Origin: an uncultured Verrucomicrobiales bacterium
Lineage (GTDB): Bacteria > Verrucomicrobiota > Verrucomicrobiia > Verrucomicrobiales > Akkermansiaceae
Direction: 5' to 3'
Assembly: GCA_937952875.1 (NCBI GenBank)
Contig: CALFDI010000320.1
Location: forward strand, 1 to 16,919
DNA: 16,919 bases
Under the pieces are notes generated by a model, which saw only the letters and a list, made by a program, of their open reading frames with translations, was not told where the DNA came from and ran no database searches. This document shows, piece after piece, positions 3,164-16,279 of this stretch (position 1 is the stretch's first letter; the number at the start of each line of letters is the position of its first letter). Both the position numbers and the translations under genes were made by a program.

Positions 3164-5008
3164 CTACTCGACCGTTACACTTTTTGCTAGATTACGAGGT
3201 TGGTCTATCGAGCAACCACGGATTCTCGCAATGTGGTAACTGAAAAGCTGTAATGCAACCGTAGCCGGGACGACTGATGTGTGCATAGGGCAAGCTGGTA
3301 TCTCAATGGCATAGTCCACAGATGAACGGGCTTCTTCATCGCCTTGAGTAATGACGCCAACAGTCGGAGCGGAGCGTGCTTTGCACTCGTGGACATTACT
3401 CATCGTCTTCTCCATTCCAGGTCCCTGGTTCAGCAGAGCGATGACTGGCATGTTCTCATCAAGGAGAGCGATCGGGCCATGCTTCAGTTCTGCAGCGTGG
3501 TATGCCTCCGCATGGATATATGAGATTTCTTTAAGTTTAAGGGCTCCTTCGAGAGCAACAGGGAACATATACCCGCGACCTATGAAAAAGCAGTGATCGT
3601 ATTGAGCGAATTTCTCGGCGACCTTTATGATTTCGTCTTCAGTTTTAAGGACCTCCTCGACGAGAGCCGGTATATCGGCGATGGCTTTCGCAAAGCATCT
3701 ACCAGATTCAATAGACATGCGGCGGCTGCGTGCGAACTTTAGCGCGATCATTAACAGCACAGACACTTGGCAAGTGAAGGCCTTAGTGGATGCGACAGAA
3801 ATCTCTGGCCCTGCGTGGAGGTAGATACCTCGCCCGGCTTCACGAGCAATCGTAGATCCGACGACATTGACAAGACCCGCGATAAGAGCGCCTTTTTCTT
3901 TCGCCTCACATACTGCGGCGAGAGTATCTGCTGTTTCTCCTGACTGAGAAATGGCAACGACTAAATCTTTAGAACCAACGATAGGGTTCCGATAACGGAA
4001 TTCTGCTGCCTGCTCGACTTCCGCATGCATGCCGCAAAAGTCTTCTGTCGCGTATTCTGCGACGAGCCCTGCGTTTAGTGAGGTTCCACACCCAACGACG
4101 AGTAGGCGGGAAATTTCAGCCATTTCACGGGGTTCAAGGTTAAGTCCCGAGAGAATAGCGTTTCCTTTATCTACATCGATTCGTCCACGAATGGCGTTTC
4201 GAATGGCGTCTGGTTGCTCGAAGATTTCCTTGAGCATGTAGTGCTCGTAGCCGCCTTTTTCTGCCGCTTCTGGAGACCAATCGATTTCTGAAGCTTCGCG
4301 AGAGACGCGGGCTGAGGTGAGTGTGCGGATATCGATTTCTACTCCATTGATTTTTGCAATATCGTTATCATCCAAGTAGATTGCATTTCGCGTATGAGTG
4401 ATAATGGCAGATGCATCTGAGGCTACGATTGTTTCTTCCGGTCCAATTCCTATAACAATAGGAGATCCTCTTCGCGCAACGACAAGCACACCAGGTTCCG
4501 CAGTCGCCATGGCAACGATACCAAAGGTGCCTTCCACCTGATTTAACGCCTTTGTCAAAGCATCGAGTAAATCGCCTTGATAAAGAGAGTCAGTGAGTTG
4601 TGCGAGAACTTCAGTATCAGTCTCCGAGAGAAAGGTGCGTCCTTCAGCTTCAAGTTTTGTTCTGAGCACACGATAGTTTTCGATAATACCATTGTGCACG
4701 AGAACGACCTTCGGATCACTGTTTCCCTTATGCGGATGAGCATTGACTGTCGTAGGTGGGCCGTGAGTCGCCCAGCGAGTATGTGCAATACCTGTGTGTG
4801 ATGTCGAAATGATGCTCTGGTCAGGATCGCTTTCGATCTCATTTTTGACCTCTGAGACTTTTCCTTCTTTTTTCCAGAGTCTGATAGCGTGCTCTGTCGC
4901 AAGAGCGATACCAGCTGAGTCATAACCTCGGTATTCGAGACGACGAAGACCACTTAGCAAGAGAGGAGCAGCAATGCGTTTACCTGTATATCCAACGATT
5001 CCACACAT
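3164..5008 (-). CDS. glmS: Glutamine-fructose-6-phosphate aminotransferase (isomerizing), GlmS
   Basis: GlmS converts fructose-6-phosphate and glutamine to glucosamine-6-phosphate and glutamate, the committed step of amino-sugar synthesis for peptidoglycan and outer-membrane glycans. It is cytosolic. The protein is 614 aa, close to the usual length. The N-terminal class II glutamine amidotransferase domain begins MCGIVGYTG, giving the catalytic Cys2 after Met removal; HTRWATHG is at 76-83 and HNGIIENY at 105-112. Two SIS isomerase domains follow from about residue 290: GCGTS (306-310), ISQSGETADT (353-362) and ISVASTKAFT (403-412) in the first, and GRGYMFPVALEGALKLKEIS in the second. The C-terminus LAKSVTVE is the canonical GlmS ending. 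It lies 27 bp behind the GlmU-type acetyltransferase gene and is probably co-transcribed with it. No glmS ribozyme can fit in that short gap, and no Shine-Dalgarno is visible before the ATG. Confidence 0.97.
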   Translation of the reverse strand: MCGIVGYTGKRIAAPLLLSGLRRLEYRGYDSAGIALATEHAIRLWKKEGKVSEVKNEIESDPDQSIISTSHTGIAHTRWATHGPPTTVNAHPHKGNSDPKVVLVHNGIIENYRVLRTKLEAEGRTFLSETDTEVLAQLTDSLYQGDLLDALTKALNQVEGTFGIVAMATAEPGVLVVARRGSPIVIGIGPEETIVASDASAIITHTRNAIYLDDNDIAKINGVEIDIRTLTSARVSREASEIDWSPEAAEKGGYEHYMLKEIFEQPDAIRNAIRGRIDVDKGNAILSGLNLEPREMAEISRLLVVGCGTSLNAGLVAEYATEDFCGMHAEVEQAAEFRYRNPIVGSKDLVVAISQSGETADTLAAVCEAKEKGALIAGLVNVVGSTIAREAGRGIYLHAGPEISVASTKAFTCQVSVLLMIALKFARSRRMSIESGRCFAKAIADIPALVEEVLKTEDEIIKVAEKFAQYDHCFFIGRGYMFPVALEGALKLKEISYIHAEAYHAAELKHGPIALLDENMPVIALLNQGPGMEKTMSNVHECKARSAPTVGVITQGDEEARSSVDYAIEIPACPMHTSVVPATVALQLFSYHIARIRGCSIDQPRNLAKSVTVE

Positions 5009-6797: not shown

Positions 6798-7733
6798 CTA
6801 AATGTTCAGTTCTTTTTTGAAATAGTCGATGGTTGGTTGTAGCCCATCTCGGAGTTGGACTTTTGGTTCCCAGTCGAGCAGCTCTTTAGCCAGAGAAATG
6901 TCAGGCTGACGTTGCTTTGGGTCGTCGGAAGGAAGGGGGAGATAAGATATTTTCGAGGTGGATTTCGTCAAATCAATCACTTCATTGGCAAGCTCCAACA
7001 TCGTGAACTCATTGGGGTTTCCGATATTTATAGGCCCCATATGTTCACCGTTCATCAGTTGAATCATTCCAGTAATCAGATCATCACAGTAGCAAAATGA
7101 TCGTGTCTGAGAGCCATCACCGTAAATGGTGATATCCTCTCCCTTGAGAGCCTGCACGACGAAGTTTGAAACGACCCTTCCAACCTCAGCATTCATGCGA
7201 GGACCATAAGTATTAAAAATACGCATGATCCGAATATCGACGTCGTTCTGCCGATGATAATCCATGAAGAGGGTTTCTGCACAGCGCTTCCCTTCATCGT
7301 AGCAAGAGCGTATTCCGATTGGATTGACGTGTCCCCAGTATTCCTCTTTTTGAGGGTGGATGAGTGGATCTCCGTAGACTTCTGAGGTTGATGCTTGAAG
7401 GATTCTTGCTCCTGTTCTGCGAGCTAGCCCTAGCATATTAATCGCCCCCATCACTGAGGTCTTCATCGTTTTGATCGCATTGTATTGATAATGGATTGGT
7501 GATGCTGGGCAGGCCAGATTGTAGATCTGGTCCACCTCTAGCTTGATGGGATCGATAATGTCGTGCCGGAGTAGCTCAAAATTTGGATTATCTAGTAGAT
7601 GAGATACATTCGTGCGGCGTCCAGTAAAGTAGTTGTCGAGGCAAATGACTTCGTTTCCTTCAGCGATCATTCGATCACAGAGATGGCTGCCGAGAAAGCC
7701 GGCTCCGCCAGTAATAAGGATTCGTTTTGGCAT
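6798..7733 (-). CDS. UDP-glucuronate decarboxylase (UDP-xylose synthase), extended SDR
   Basis: A 311-aa NAD-dependent extended short-chain dehydrogenase. UDP-glucuronate decarboxylase oxidises, decarboxylates and re-reduces UDP-glucuronate to UDP-xylose in the cytosol, supplying xylose for polysaccharide. The Rossmann motif GGAGFLG is at 9-15. The family-specific [11 protein letters not shown] is at 73-83 and STSEVYGDP at 115-123, with the catalytic Ser/Thr-Glu pair around 116-118. The YxxxK pair is Y145/K149 within RSCYDEGKR, and IFNTYGPRM follows. These signatures separate it from dTDP-glucose dehydratases and UDP-galactose epimerases. The length is typical for the soluble bacterial enzyme without an N-terminal anchor. 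It sits 54 bp after the TIM-barrel isomerase gene and 1 bp before the VF530 gene. No glycosyltransferases are adjacent, so the acceptor glycan cannot be guessed. Confidence 0.9.
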
Positions 7734-10251: not shown

Positions 10252-11481
10252 ATGGCTCGTATCAATGATAATTTTCTCAAGCTCAAGGCTGGCTATCTTT
10301 TCCCAGAAATCGGTCGTCGTGTGACGGCCTTCACCACTGCGAATCCTGATAAGGCGGCAAAGCTGATTCGCTGTGGAATAGGTGATGTAACAGAGCCTAT
10401 TCCTGCTGCTGCTGCGCAGGCGATGCATGACGGAATAGATGAGCAGACGAATCGGGATACATTTCACGGATATGGTCCTGAACAGGGCTATGGATTCCTG
10501 CGTGAGGCCATTGCTGAGAATGCCTATGCAGGCTTGAATATTTCAGCTGATGAAATTTTCGTTTCAGATGGCTCGAAGTGTGATTCAGGAAACATTCTCG
10601 ATATCTTGGGACAGGGCAATGTCATCGCGGTCACTGATCCAGTCTATCCAGTTTACGTCGATACGAATGTGATGATCGGAAACACGGGCGAAGGCGATGC
10701 CGATGGTCGTTATGAAGGGCTCGTCTATCTCTCTTGCACAGCTGAGAACGACTTCGTCCCAGCTATCCCGACTGAGAAAGTCGATGTGATCTACCTCTGC
10801 TACCCGAATAATCCGACTGGTGCTGCTGCCACACGAGAGCAACTCACAGAATGGGTGAAGTATGCTAAGGAAAATGATGCGATTATCATGTATGACGCTG
10901 CCTATGAGGCCTTCATCCAGGATGAAAACGTGCCGCGTTCTATCTTTGAAATCGAGGGAGCACACGAGTGCGCTATGGAATTCCGATCTTTCTCTAAGAA
11001 TGGTGGATTCACAGGGTTACGCTGTGGTTATATCGCGATTCCTGATGCTCTAACAGGAGCCGCAGCTGATGGCTCACGCGTCTCTATCAAACAGCTCTGG
11101 TCACGCCGCACATCGACTAAGTTTAACGGAGCATCATACCCGATCCAGAAGGGCGCAGCTGCTCTCTTCTCTCCAGAGGGAAAAGCCCAAGTATCAGCTC
11201 TCATCGAGCACTACATGGCGAATGCAAGTCTACTCCGCACAGCGTGCCAAGAGGCAGGCCTGACTGTCTATGGTGGTGAAAATGCCCCTTACGTCTGGGT
11301 CGCTTGCCCAGAGGGTGTGACGAGTTGGGACATGTTCGATAAGATGCTCAATGACGCATCTGTCGTGATTACTCCAGGTTCAGGATTTGGTGCAGCTGGT
11401 GAAGGATTTTTCCGTATCTCAGCCTTTAACTCGAAGGCGAATGTCGAAGAAGTATGCCGCCGGATTAAAGAGATTTTCTAA
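10252..11481 (+). CDS. dapL: LL-diaminopimelate aminotransferase, DapL
   Basis: DapL, a PLP-dependent fold-type I aminotransferase, converts tetrahydrodipicolinate plus glutamate directly to LL-diaminopimelate, bypassing the succinylase and acetylase steps of lysine and peptidoglycan synthesis. The protein is 409 aa, as expected. Visible features are [16 protein letters not shown] (5-20, the family N-terminus), [10 protein letters not shown] (40-49), [14 protein letters not shown] (74-87), [10 protein letters not shown] (131-140), YPNNPTG (184-190), the PLP-binding Asp215 and Tyr218 (YDAAYEAF), the Schiff-base Lys249 in [16 protein letters not shown], and FRISAF near the end. The 138-bp region from 10114 to 10251 separates it from a divergent short gene. 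It stands alone as a transcription unit and ends in an intrinsic terminator. DapL is typical of Verrucomicrobia, Chlamydiae, Bacteroidetes and plants. Confidence 0.96.
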
Positions 11482-15180: not shown

Positions 15181-15298
15181 AATAGGTGTGGTGAAGGTTG
15201 CGGATAAGAGCAAGGACAGCCTCTAAGAGCAAGGCGGGTTTACTGAAAAACACGATTGGCGGCATTTTTTTTAAGAAAAAACAATTTAATCCGACAAA

Positions 15299-15326
15299 TT
15301 GGCATGCTTACGGCAGTATATATAAT
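15299..15326 (+). promoter_or_regulatory. Strong sigma-70-type promoter, no protein gene downstream
   Basis: A -35 box TTGGCA (15299-15304) and a perfect -10 box TATAAT (15321-15326) are separated by 16 bp. The predicted start is near 15332-15334. It points away from glyQS into a stretch with no normal-sized gene and a terminator-like hairpin about 200 nt on. This is the best-matching promoter in the window. The AT-rich core could also serve glyQS in the other direction (TATACT on the minus strand at 15320-15315). Confidence 0.7.
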
Positions 15327-15332
15327 GTCTGA

Positions 15333-15531
15333 AGATTAAAAATCGCAGGCATTCCAGCTGGGTCATGTGAAAGTTTATGGGTTTTTCTGATCATAGCTTC
15401 AGTTGGGGTGCTTCTGCGGCCTCCGGATAATAATTTAACAAAGAGCATCAGCGCTATTGTTAGAGACGGCTCCGACCGTGATTTTGGCTTTAATGGGTTT
15501 TTGCCAAGATTACGTCGGGGCCGTTTTTTTT
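15333..15531 (+). ncRNA. Putative intergenic small RNA of about 200 nt
   Basis: The transcript is defined by the promoter at 15299-15326 and by a terminator hairpin with eight T ending at 15531. Within it, a hairpin at 15436-15462 pairs TAACAA with TTGTTA and AG/GC with GC/CT, closed by an ATCA loop with one A-G mismatch and one bulged A. The 3' hairpin has a 22-bp stem with three G-U pairs, which suggests RNA pairing and not a DNA palindrome. The 5' part also contains a 17-codon frame (15377-15430), so a small peptide is possible. I could not match it to 6S RNA, SRP RNA, tmRNA, RNase P or a T-box: the 6S end-to-end pairing and the SRP apical loop are not seen. The ends are estimated. Confidence 0.55.
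15466..15531 (+). terminator. Long terminator-type hairpin with U-run
   Basis: ACGGCTCCGA (15466-15475) pairs with TCGGGGCCGT (15515-15524), and after a single bulged C, CGTGATTTTGGC (15477-15488) pairs with GCCAAGATTACG (15503-15514). The loop is 14 nt and T-rich. Three G-U pairs occur. Eight T (15524-15531) follow. The stem is much longer than needed for termination and may be a functional RNA element as well. Confidence 0.85.
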
Positions 15532-15661
15532 GCTAGTGTAGCCAGCACCTAGATAGCAGAGCGAGACCGATGAATAATCGTGGGGTGGTATGATCGGCAC
15601 TAGAGAGAGACTCTCTCCTAATAAAAGTCATTCCGAGGGCTCAGGAATAGCCTGAAACGAA
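15532..15661. other. Intergenic tail with small dyads downstream of the MerC gene
   Basis: No gene is supported in this 130-bp part. A 6-bp dyad GAGAGA/TCTCTC with a 3-nt loop lies at 15603-15617, and TCAGG/CCTGA at about 15641-15655. Both lie after the MerC-like gene on the minus strand. Without a U-run they are at best weak 3'-end stabilisers. Confidence 0.3.
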
Positions 15662-16279
15662 CTATGCGCACGTAGAGCATTTACTGGCTCTACATGCGTG
15701 GCCACAGGAGCAGAGATTTGCGATGTGCGCAGCGATGAGAAAGAATCCGCCTAGAGTCGTGACTATCGCTGCAGAGGGAATGTGAATACTGGTTTTCCCG
15801 TTATCATCCACCTGTAGGCTAGGGCAGCAATTATCAACACAGCCTGTTGCAGTATCTGATTCATCTGTAGAAGCCAGTGTGTGCGCACAGTGAGCATCGG
15901 TTTGTTCACTGCCAGTGCTCGCGGGCGAATTGCTTACTGCAGTCGTCGTGTCGTTATTTGCAGCCTCTTTAGTAAGAGCGGGGAGAAGGGCTCCGACTAG
16001 GATGAGCAAAATTCCAATCGAGGCGACGGCAACAATCCAGCGTTTGCGATGTGTTTGATATCCTTTGCGAATTGAAAAAAGTGCGAGTGGAACGACAAAA
16101 AGTGCGACAAGAATATGAGACGCTGGATGCGCCCACACTTTGCCAAAGCTTGGCAGTGCAAGAAGGAGAATAGGCGCAAGCGCACAATGGATCGCACAAA
16201 GGATAGATGCGGCGACTCCGACTCGATCTGCTTTCTGGAGAGTGAGGGACGACGCTGTAGTTGTTAAATTGGGAGTCAT
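15662..16279 (-). CDS. MerC-domain membrane protein with Cys/His-rich linker and tail
   Basis: A 205-aa inner-membrane protein of the MerC family. The family includes mercury-resistance MerC, but most chromosomal members are of unknown metal specificity. The signature KADRVGVAASILCAIHCALAP (16-36) holds the Cys28-x-x-His31-Cys32 motif in the first membrane segment. Other membrane segments lie at about 52-70, 81-102 and 168-189. Unusual for the family, a 65-residue polar loop (103-167) carries HCAH (130-133) and C147, C151 and C152, and the C-terminus carries C190, C192, C196, C201 and C204 with H194. It probably binds or moves a thiophilic or transition metal. There is no merR, merT or merA nearby, so mercury resistance is not implied. 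The start has no Shine-Dalgarno; a dyad lies 71-87 bp upstream. Confidence 0.82.
   Translation of the reverse strand: MTPNLTTTASSLTLQKADRVGVAASILCAIHCALAPILLLALPSFGKVWAHPASHILVALFVVPLALFSIRKGYQTHRKRWIVAVASIGILLILVGALLPALTKEAANNDTTTAVSNSPASTGSEQTDAHCAHTLASTDESDTATGCVDNCCPSLQVDDNGKTSIHIPSAAIVTTLGGFFLIAAHIANLCSCGHACRASKCSTCA

Follow-up and report, generated by a model that had tools for sequence, protein, structure and literature searches.

What is encoded in the stretch between glyQS and the MerC-domain gene of this uncultured Verrucomicrobiales bacterium? The window, by which we mean the whole 16,919-nt stretch of DNA that was analyzed, carries at 15299-15531 a segment that the first-pass annotation had described as a putative small RNA gene of about 200 nt, upstream of and divergent from glyQS. 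We propose that this segment is a ~200-nt sRNA gene of a previously unrecognized Verrucomicrobiales family, and we put the probability of this reading, which is drawn from sequence comparison, at roughly 0.85. No description of the family was found in Rfam 15 or in the literature searched, a search that most subscription journals fell outside. The window also holds a GlmS-like gene (SIS plus glutamine amidotransferase; 3167-5008), an epimerase gene (6801-7733), and an aminotransferase gene (10252-11481), all ordinary by Pfam.

The layout of the locus (Table 1) is that of an independent sRNA gene, as had been claimed, and the promoter, hairpins, T8 tract, family relatives, and covariation all support it. 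The annotated TTGGCA-16-TATAAT promoter is present and is the best of 11 such sites in the window. Shuffled sequence gave a mean of 22.3 sites, more than the window itself, so the promoter site alone is weak evidence. The RNA would start at 15326 if transcribed with sigma54 or at about 15333 with sigma70, and would end in the T-tract. A 206-nt stretch covering it has a minimum free energy of -77.2 kcal/mol, compared to -54.5 ± 4.4 kcal/mol in 200 shuffles, none of which was as low. A coding reading was considered and rejected: the longest ORFs within 15299-15540 are 42 aa on the plus strand and 46 aa on the minus strand, neither has other support, and the claim that no normal protein gene lies in between holds.

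Table 1. Features of the predicted sRNA gene and its flanks, in window coordinates
Feature	Position	Strand	Basis or remark
Sigma70-like promoter, TTGGCA-16-TATAAT	15299..15326	+	11/12 consensus positions; top site of the window
Possible sigma54 promoter remnant, TTGGCATGCTTACGGCAG	15299..15316	+	GG(-24)/GC(-12) and family spacing to RNA 5' end
Predicted ~200-nt RNA	15333..15531	+	Promoter plus terminator; fold z -5.1 (15330-15535)
5' mini-hairpin, GATT-AAA-AATC	15334..15344	+	Roughly where relatives carry the GTCGCGAC / GTCGCAAGAC element
Hairpin H1, module copy 1, no T-tract	15343..15419	+	Fold; R2 match 15348-15413
H1 loop, TTTATGGGTTTT	15374..15385	+	Genome word search
Small hairpin H2 (spacer)	15434..15464	+	Fold
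Hairpin H3, module copy 2 and terminator stem	15464..15526	+	Fold; R2 match
H3 loop, TTAATGGGTTTT	15490..15501	+	Genome word search
T8 tract of intrinsic terminator	15524..15531	+	Sequence
glyQS, dimeric-type glycine--tRNA ligase	Likely start about 15183	-	One flank of the predicted sRNA
MerC-domain gene	15662-16279	-	Other flank of the predicted sRNA

The terminator hairpin had been described as a 22-bp stem with three G-U pairs, one bulge, and eight U. The bulge and the T8 tract are as described, but the stem (H3) contains 24 pairs, including 4 G-U pairs. The second hairpin that had been reported, at 15436-15462, corresponds to H2 (11 pairs, -8.6 kcal/mol). The first-pass annotation missed H1, which has 28 pairs (7 G-U) and folds with -30.7 kcal/mol, and with it the fact that H1 and H3 are one module occurring twice, with the loop as its conserved part. 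The 5' mini-hairpin is weak taken alone: it has 4 bp, shares 2 nt with the outermost H1 pairs, and has a similar counterpart in about a third of shuffled stretches.

The module is a hairpin of ~65 nt whose 12-14 nt loop reads UUNWUGGGUUUU. H1 and H3 place two copies of it within 180 nt, each with the long stem, the near-invariant loop, and covariation support, and the two are probably part of one transcript. The 12-nt loop word AAAACCCAWWAA occurs three times in the draft genome, which is 72% complete, and all three occurrences lie in such hairpin loops. The third copy (C144:6108-6172, locus L225) scores 34.9 bits (E 9.4e-4) with the family model described below, lies outside the training sequences of both early models, and has the canonical 5' element GTCGCAAGAC followed by CTTTTTT.

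Does the module have relatives elsewhere? BLASTN against 58 genomes, 57 of them other than the window's own, found only the window itself. We then used covariance models. R1 was built from the window sequence alone, its alignment consisting of that sequence twice. At E<=0.001 it matched 12 of the 195 family genomes: the window's own and 11 others. In the best 8 alignments shown, the part that the matches share is the hairpin loop UUNWUGGGUUUU. The lowest R1 matches, at 26.9 bits, come close to the ~23 bits of the window's opposite strand. Long palindromes alone reach up to 23 bits with R1, and the opposite strands of true hairpins up to 26 bits with R2. The weakest matches therefore count for little by themselves and need the tail and the loop as well.

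R2 was built from 17 hairpins aligned with MAFFT (2 of them from the window). Among the 195 family genomes it matched 87 at E<=0.01, including 75 that also pass E<=0.001, with up to 11 matches per genome and 8 of 16 genera represented. At the level of the order, 31 of 239 genomes matched at E<=0.001. A third model, R3, built from 91 matches, found 34 of 384 genomes of the class, including five from another family, f31. Copies in f31 (4 genomes fetched), f2 (4), and f6 (1) have the long hairpin, a related loop, and T-rich tails; the f31 loops have GG in place of GGG, and these members of other families, at 32-40 bits, were accepted by eye on loop and tail. Because 13-26 candidates were scored per genome, the counts may be low and absences are weak. 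None of the 20 listed genomes of genus g2 matched, nor did R2 match G007 or G020, the nearest relatives by glyQS, and the element is either patchy in these genomes or beyond the reach of the model.

An important caveat is that H1 (54.1 bits) and H3 (51.1 bits) were among the R2 training sequences and match that model by construction. Independent sequence support comes from the other hairpins having been found with R1, and from the L225 copy, which has the canonical 5' element and a T-tract.

The stems vary between relatives in the way expected of a conserved fold, and this covariation, together with the relatives themselves, bears out the sRNA proposal of the first-pass annotation. RNAalifold on the 17 hairpins, aligned by MAFFT without fitting to structure, gives 14 pairs, of which 12 have at least one compensatory change. 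Across 82 distinct hairpins, 93.0% of cells are paired compared to 83.1% in shuffles, with 172 double-change cells compared to 44.2 ± 9.6, and double changes fall in 17 of 20 pairs. Sliding the partner by 1-3 columns reduces pairing to 29.5-51%. The 82-hairpin alignment was fitted to structure, so its figures lean toward structure, and the unfitted MAFFT alignment agrees with it. The loop itself hardly varies across the roughly 16 effective sequences.

We next considered how the family members are arranged as transcription units. The survey comprised 109 units (73, 19, and 17 from three sets of fetched loci), reduced to 97 by collapsing 12 with ungapped upstream identity of at least 80%; the survey covers the units that were fetched and not every family-level R2 match. 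Same-place duplicate loci, weak opposite-strand matches, and weak extras at L311 (13-82, 379-448) and L320 (615-667) were omitted, and shuffles were single-base. A sigma54-like site (TGGY-N8-YGC) ends 20-36 nt before the hairpin in 35 of 97 units, compared to 0.28 in shuffles (maximum 3 in 500). In 18 further units TTGAC lies 48-52 nt upstream (2.1 in shuffles, maximum 7 in 500). The GC of the sigma54-type site falls exactly 12 nt before GTCG in 26 of these 35 units.

Just before the hairpin, 75 of 97 units have a mini-palindrome with arms of at least 4 bp, compared to 30.8 in shuffles (maximum 42 in 100). The commonest are of the TGTCGCGACA, GTCGCGAC, and GTCGCAAGAC types, and others, such as GTTCACGCAATGTGAAC, GTTCCTGAGGGAAC, and TCCGCTTCGGCGGA, differ in sequence and keep the pairing. 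A T-tract follows in 87 units, a count made without a shuffle control. Many of the relatives' copies look from their sequence like ~90-nt single-module genes consisting of a promoter-like site, a short palindrome, the hairpin, and a T-tract. These copies, several to a genome and many behind sigma54-like sites, had escaped the first-pass annotation. Tandem copies occur at L185 (four), L186 (three), and L187 (four), and by eye two modules seem to stand behind one promoter-like site, as in the window, at L170, L172, L173, and L135. A gene for RpoN is present in 57 of 58 genomes, among them the window's own.

The window's two units are among the 44 of 97 that have neither promoter pattern, and they are divergent in other ways: the -12 element is GGC and not TGC, H1 lacks a T-tract, and the 5' mini-hairpin is weak. 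The possible sigma54 site TTGGCATGCTTACGGC keeps the GG and the GC, and the 12 nt from there to GTC (15327) is the commonest spacing in the family. Its matrix score of 6.8 ranks fifth among about 33,800 window positions, four of which score higher. Family sites score 16-29 in 32 of 33 cases and 0.9 in one, and the window's site is degenerate. Given the clean TATAAT, a sigma70 promoter may have taken over in the window, or both may work.

The position beside glyQS looks incidental, because neither such an element nor a match above noise was seen at the glyQS loci of relatives. At 29 loci of relatives, the 420 nt immediately upstream of glyQS contain no such element by eye; nhmmer found nothing at these loci, and blastn gave chance matches only (E 0.98 or worse). 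No R1 match at 45 glyQS loci exceeded 22.4 bits, which is noise level given the 23.2 bits of the window's own opposite strand. As a separate observation, a leader- or promoter-like motif recurs upstream of glyQS, by eye, as CTTGC or CTTGAC, ~17 nt, then CCTGYTTCC or TTATATC. Its sites lie at 15184-15290 (minus strand) in the window and, in L003-L031, ahead of glyQS. A clear TATAT is present here in some relatives and is replaced by CCTGCTTCCATCC, perhaps a different promoter type, in others; no consensus fold was found for the motif.

The neighbors of family members also differ between loci. They include xylose isomerase and a xylulokinase-like kinase at L202, xylose isomerase at L203, a 2-oxoacid dehydrogenase acyltransferase and a sigma-70 family factor at L225, LexA and a DsbD-like gene at L190, and MutL and an AlkB-like oxygenase at L156. 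That the neighbors of these five loci differ argues for action in trans. We also observed that two genera carry a module pair beside xylose isomerase, and that a sigma54-like site precedes the first of the two modules (L202 2704-2924, L203 2162-2383); the L202 pair lies between the xylose isomerase and xylulokinase-like genes, on the opposite strand.

The best reading of these sequences is a multi-copy, Hfq-independent, trans-acting sRNA family in which the window would be a double-hairpin member. A search for Hfq (PF17209) found it in none of 58 genomes of the order, including the window's own at 72% completeness, and the control found rings in 5 of 14 named genomes. The contrast between an invariant, exposed loop and stems that drift suggests that the active site is the loop. 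We hypothesize that the stem would protect the RNA and end transcription, and that the exposed loop would pair in trans, through a short seed, with AAAACCCA-like mRNA sites rich in A and C, without Hfq. Copy number and promoter would set the dose of RNA, and copies with a sigma54-like promoter would be turned on by an enhancer-binding activator. We give the protecting and terminating stem with a seed-pairing loop about an even chance of being the mechanism. A full-length complement of the 12-nt loop occurs nowhere else in the window's genome, which gives no sign of extended antisense pairing with a single conserved target. Such a target was also sought in 13 genomes and discarded: in a count by hand, 48 of 79 word matches lay on listed hairpins, and the other 31 were fewer than the 53 of a reversed-pattern control, which is no enrichment.

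Within the sRNA-family reading, the loop might instead bind an RNA-binding protein, either one sequestered in the manner of CsrB/RsmZ or an effector. The near-invariance of the loop on drifting stems would fit protein binding, as would the repetition of modules within and between transcripts and the lack of a full-length antisense partner in this genome. However, many units look by eye to have a single module, whereas one would expect many in a sponge. In addition, the loop lacks GGA, the CsrA motif, and the partner protein is putative. We regard protein binding as possible but less likely than seed pairing.

Could the hairpins instead be DNA elements? A dispersed palindromic repeat of the REP or MITE kind, without RNA function, would account for several copies per genome in scattered contexts and for the tandem groups. 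It would not account for the promoter-like sites and 5' palindrome at fixed distances in many units, or for a T-tract on one side. Furthermore, the stems covary rather than stay identical, the window's genome has only 3 matches, and members in distant genera have diverged, which makes a repeat improbable. Two related candidates were examined in their own right and dropped. The loop word TGGGTTTTT is not over-represented as a genome-wide DNA repeat (10 occurrences compared to 9 for the reversed pattern), and by eye the window's two copies are the only ones located in a long hairpin's loop. For carriage by phage, 24 stretches of viral contigs contain the 16-mer GGTTAATGGGTTTTCC, and their best R3 match, at 26.6 bits, is partial and at noise level. 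A similarity search of plasmids and phages gave short matches only (E 0.8 or worse).

A related proposal is that the hairpins are simply terminators of neighboring genes, their loop conserved for termination. A T-tract after 87 of 97 hairpins would fit this, and H3 is a good terminator. However, a promoter-like site, by the patterns defined in this analysis, lies just upstream in 53 of 97 units, and terminators are not known to need an invariant 12-nt loop. In the window both flanking genes are on the opposite strand, so H3 and its T-tract end no protein gene. We consider this proposal very improbable.

A chance pairing of promoter and terminator with no gene between them is more improbable still: promoter-like sites are frequent by chance and BLASTN found no relative, but the fold z-score of -5.1, the module repeated within 180 nt, and the covarying relatives speak against it. 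The last alternative, a divergent 6S or other housekeeping RNA, has the length of about 200 nt and the promoter of its own in its favor, and is scarcely credible given the separate hairpins with repeated loops, the lack of any Rfam match at gathering score, and a 6S match elsewhere in the genome.

The searches behind this last point agree with the original statement that the RNA does not fit the common housekeeping RNAs. Of 4227 Rfam families, 6S included, none matched the window at gathering score, and at E<=10 only three sub-threshold matches appeared, the top one being ctRNA at 17.6 bits compared to a gathering score of 50. The genome's 6S match lies at C31:4736-4918, with 45.7 bits, just below the cut-off of 46.4, and E 4e-8. 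A tRNA/tmRNA scan of the window found none. At seven loci bearing relatives, Rfam gave one tRNA, outside the unit, and at ten loci (L202 is in both sets) it gave, at E<=0.1, a tRNA, Acido-Lenti-1, and a CRISPR repeat, none of which covers a hairpin. As a side observation, the Acido-Lenti-1 (RF01687) matches lie amid tandem hairpin copies (L187 2876-3077, 3869-3922), one over the gathering score and two below.

Taken together, these observations favor the sRNA-family reading, and they allow a broader proposal that we put forward as possible and decidedly tentative: a dose-controlled RNA network operating where no Hfq was found, with an invariant loop, up to about ten genes per genome, promoters of sigma54 and sigma70 type, and a putative chaperone or binding protein of the Verrucomicrobiota. 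The family offers a multi-copy candidate regulatory RNA for bacteria in which no Hfq was found (0 of 58 genomes), and it raises the concrete question of what reads UUNWUGGGUUUU. The sigma54-like promoters give a handle on when the RNA is switched on, and the covariance models make the family searchable.

How does the family compare to known systems? The predicted sRNA resembles 6S RNA (RF00013) in size and in being an independent gene, and has no match to the 6S model. CsrB/RsmZ-type sponge RNAs carry a repeated loop on hairpins, in many modules. The new family shares the repeated hairpin loop, but its loop is without GGA and its units have one or two modules. The Qrr RNAs of Vibrio act with Hfq, whereas Hfq was found in none of the 58 genomes here, and the single-hairpin layout and the loop of the new family presumably differ from those of Qrr as well. 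These Vibrio sRNAs are sigma54-dependent and encoded by several short genes per genome (PMC10162802, PMC8043402), a layout that the new family resembles in its sigma54-like sites and its several short predicted genes.

The closest resemblance is to alpha-r14 of the Rhizobiales (NfeR1; RFM SmelA075/SmelA099), which has several hairpins with an ultraconserved loop on diverged stems (PMC3927594, PMC10746234). The number of modules varies, there are several gene copies per genome, and NfeR1 is Hfq-independent, while the loop is CCUCCUCCC, an anti-Shine-Dalgarno motif (PMC3927594, PMC10746234). The new family likewise has a repeated, identical loop on diverged stems and multiple copies. In contrast, its loop is UUNWUGGGUUUU and not CCUCCUCCC, it belongs to another phylum, and many of its promoters are sigma54-like. 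With sequence compared through Rfam only, the new family is not a member of alpha-r14, because the loop differs, and is like it in outline, which makes alpha-r14 its nearest parallel.
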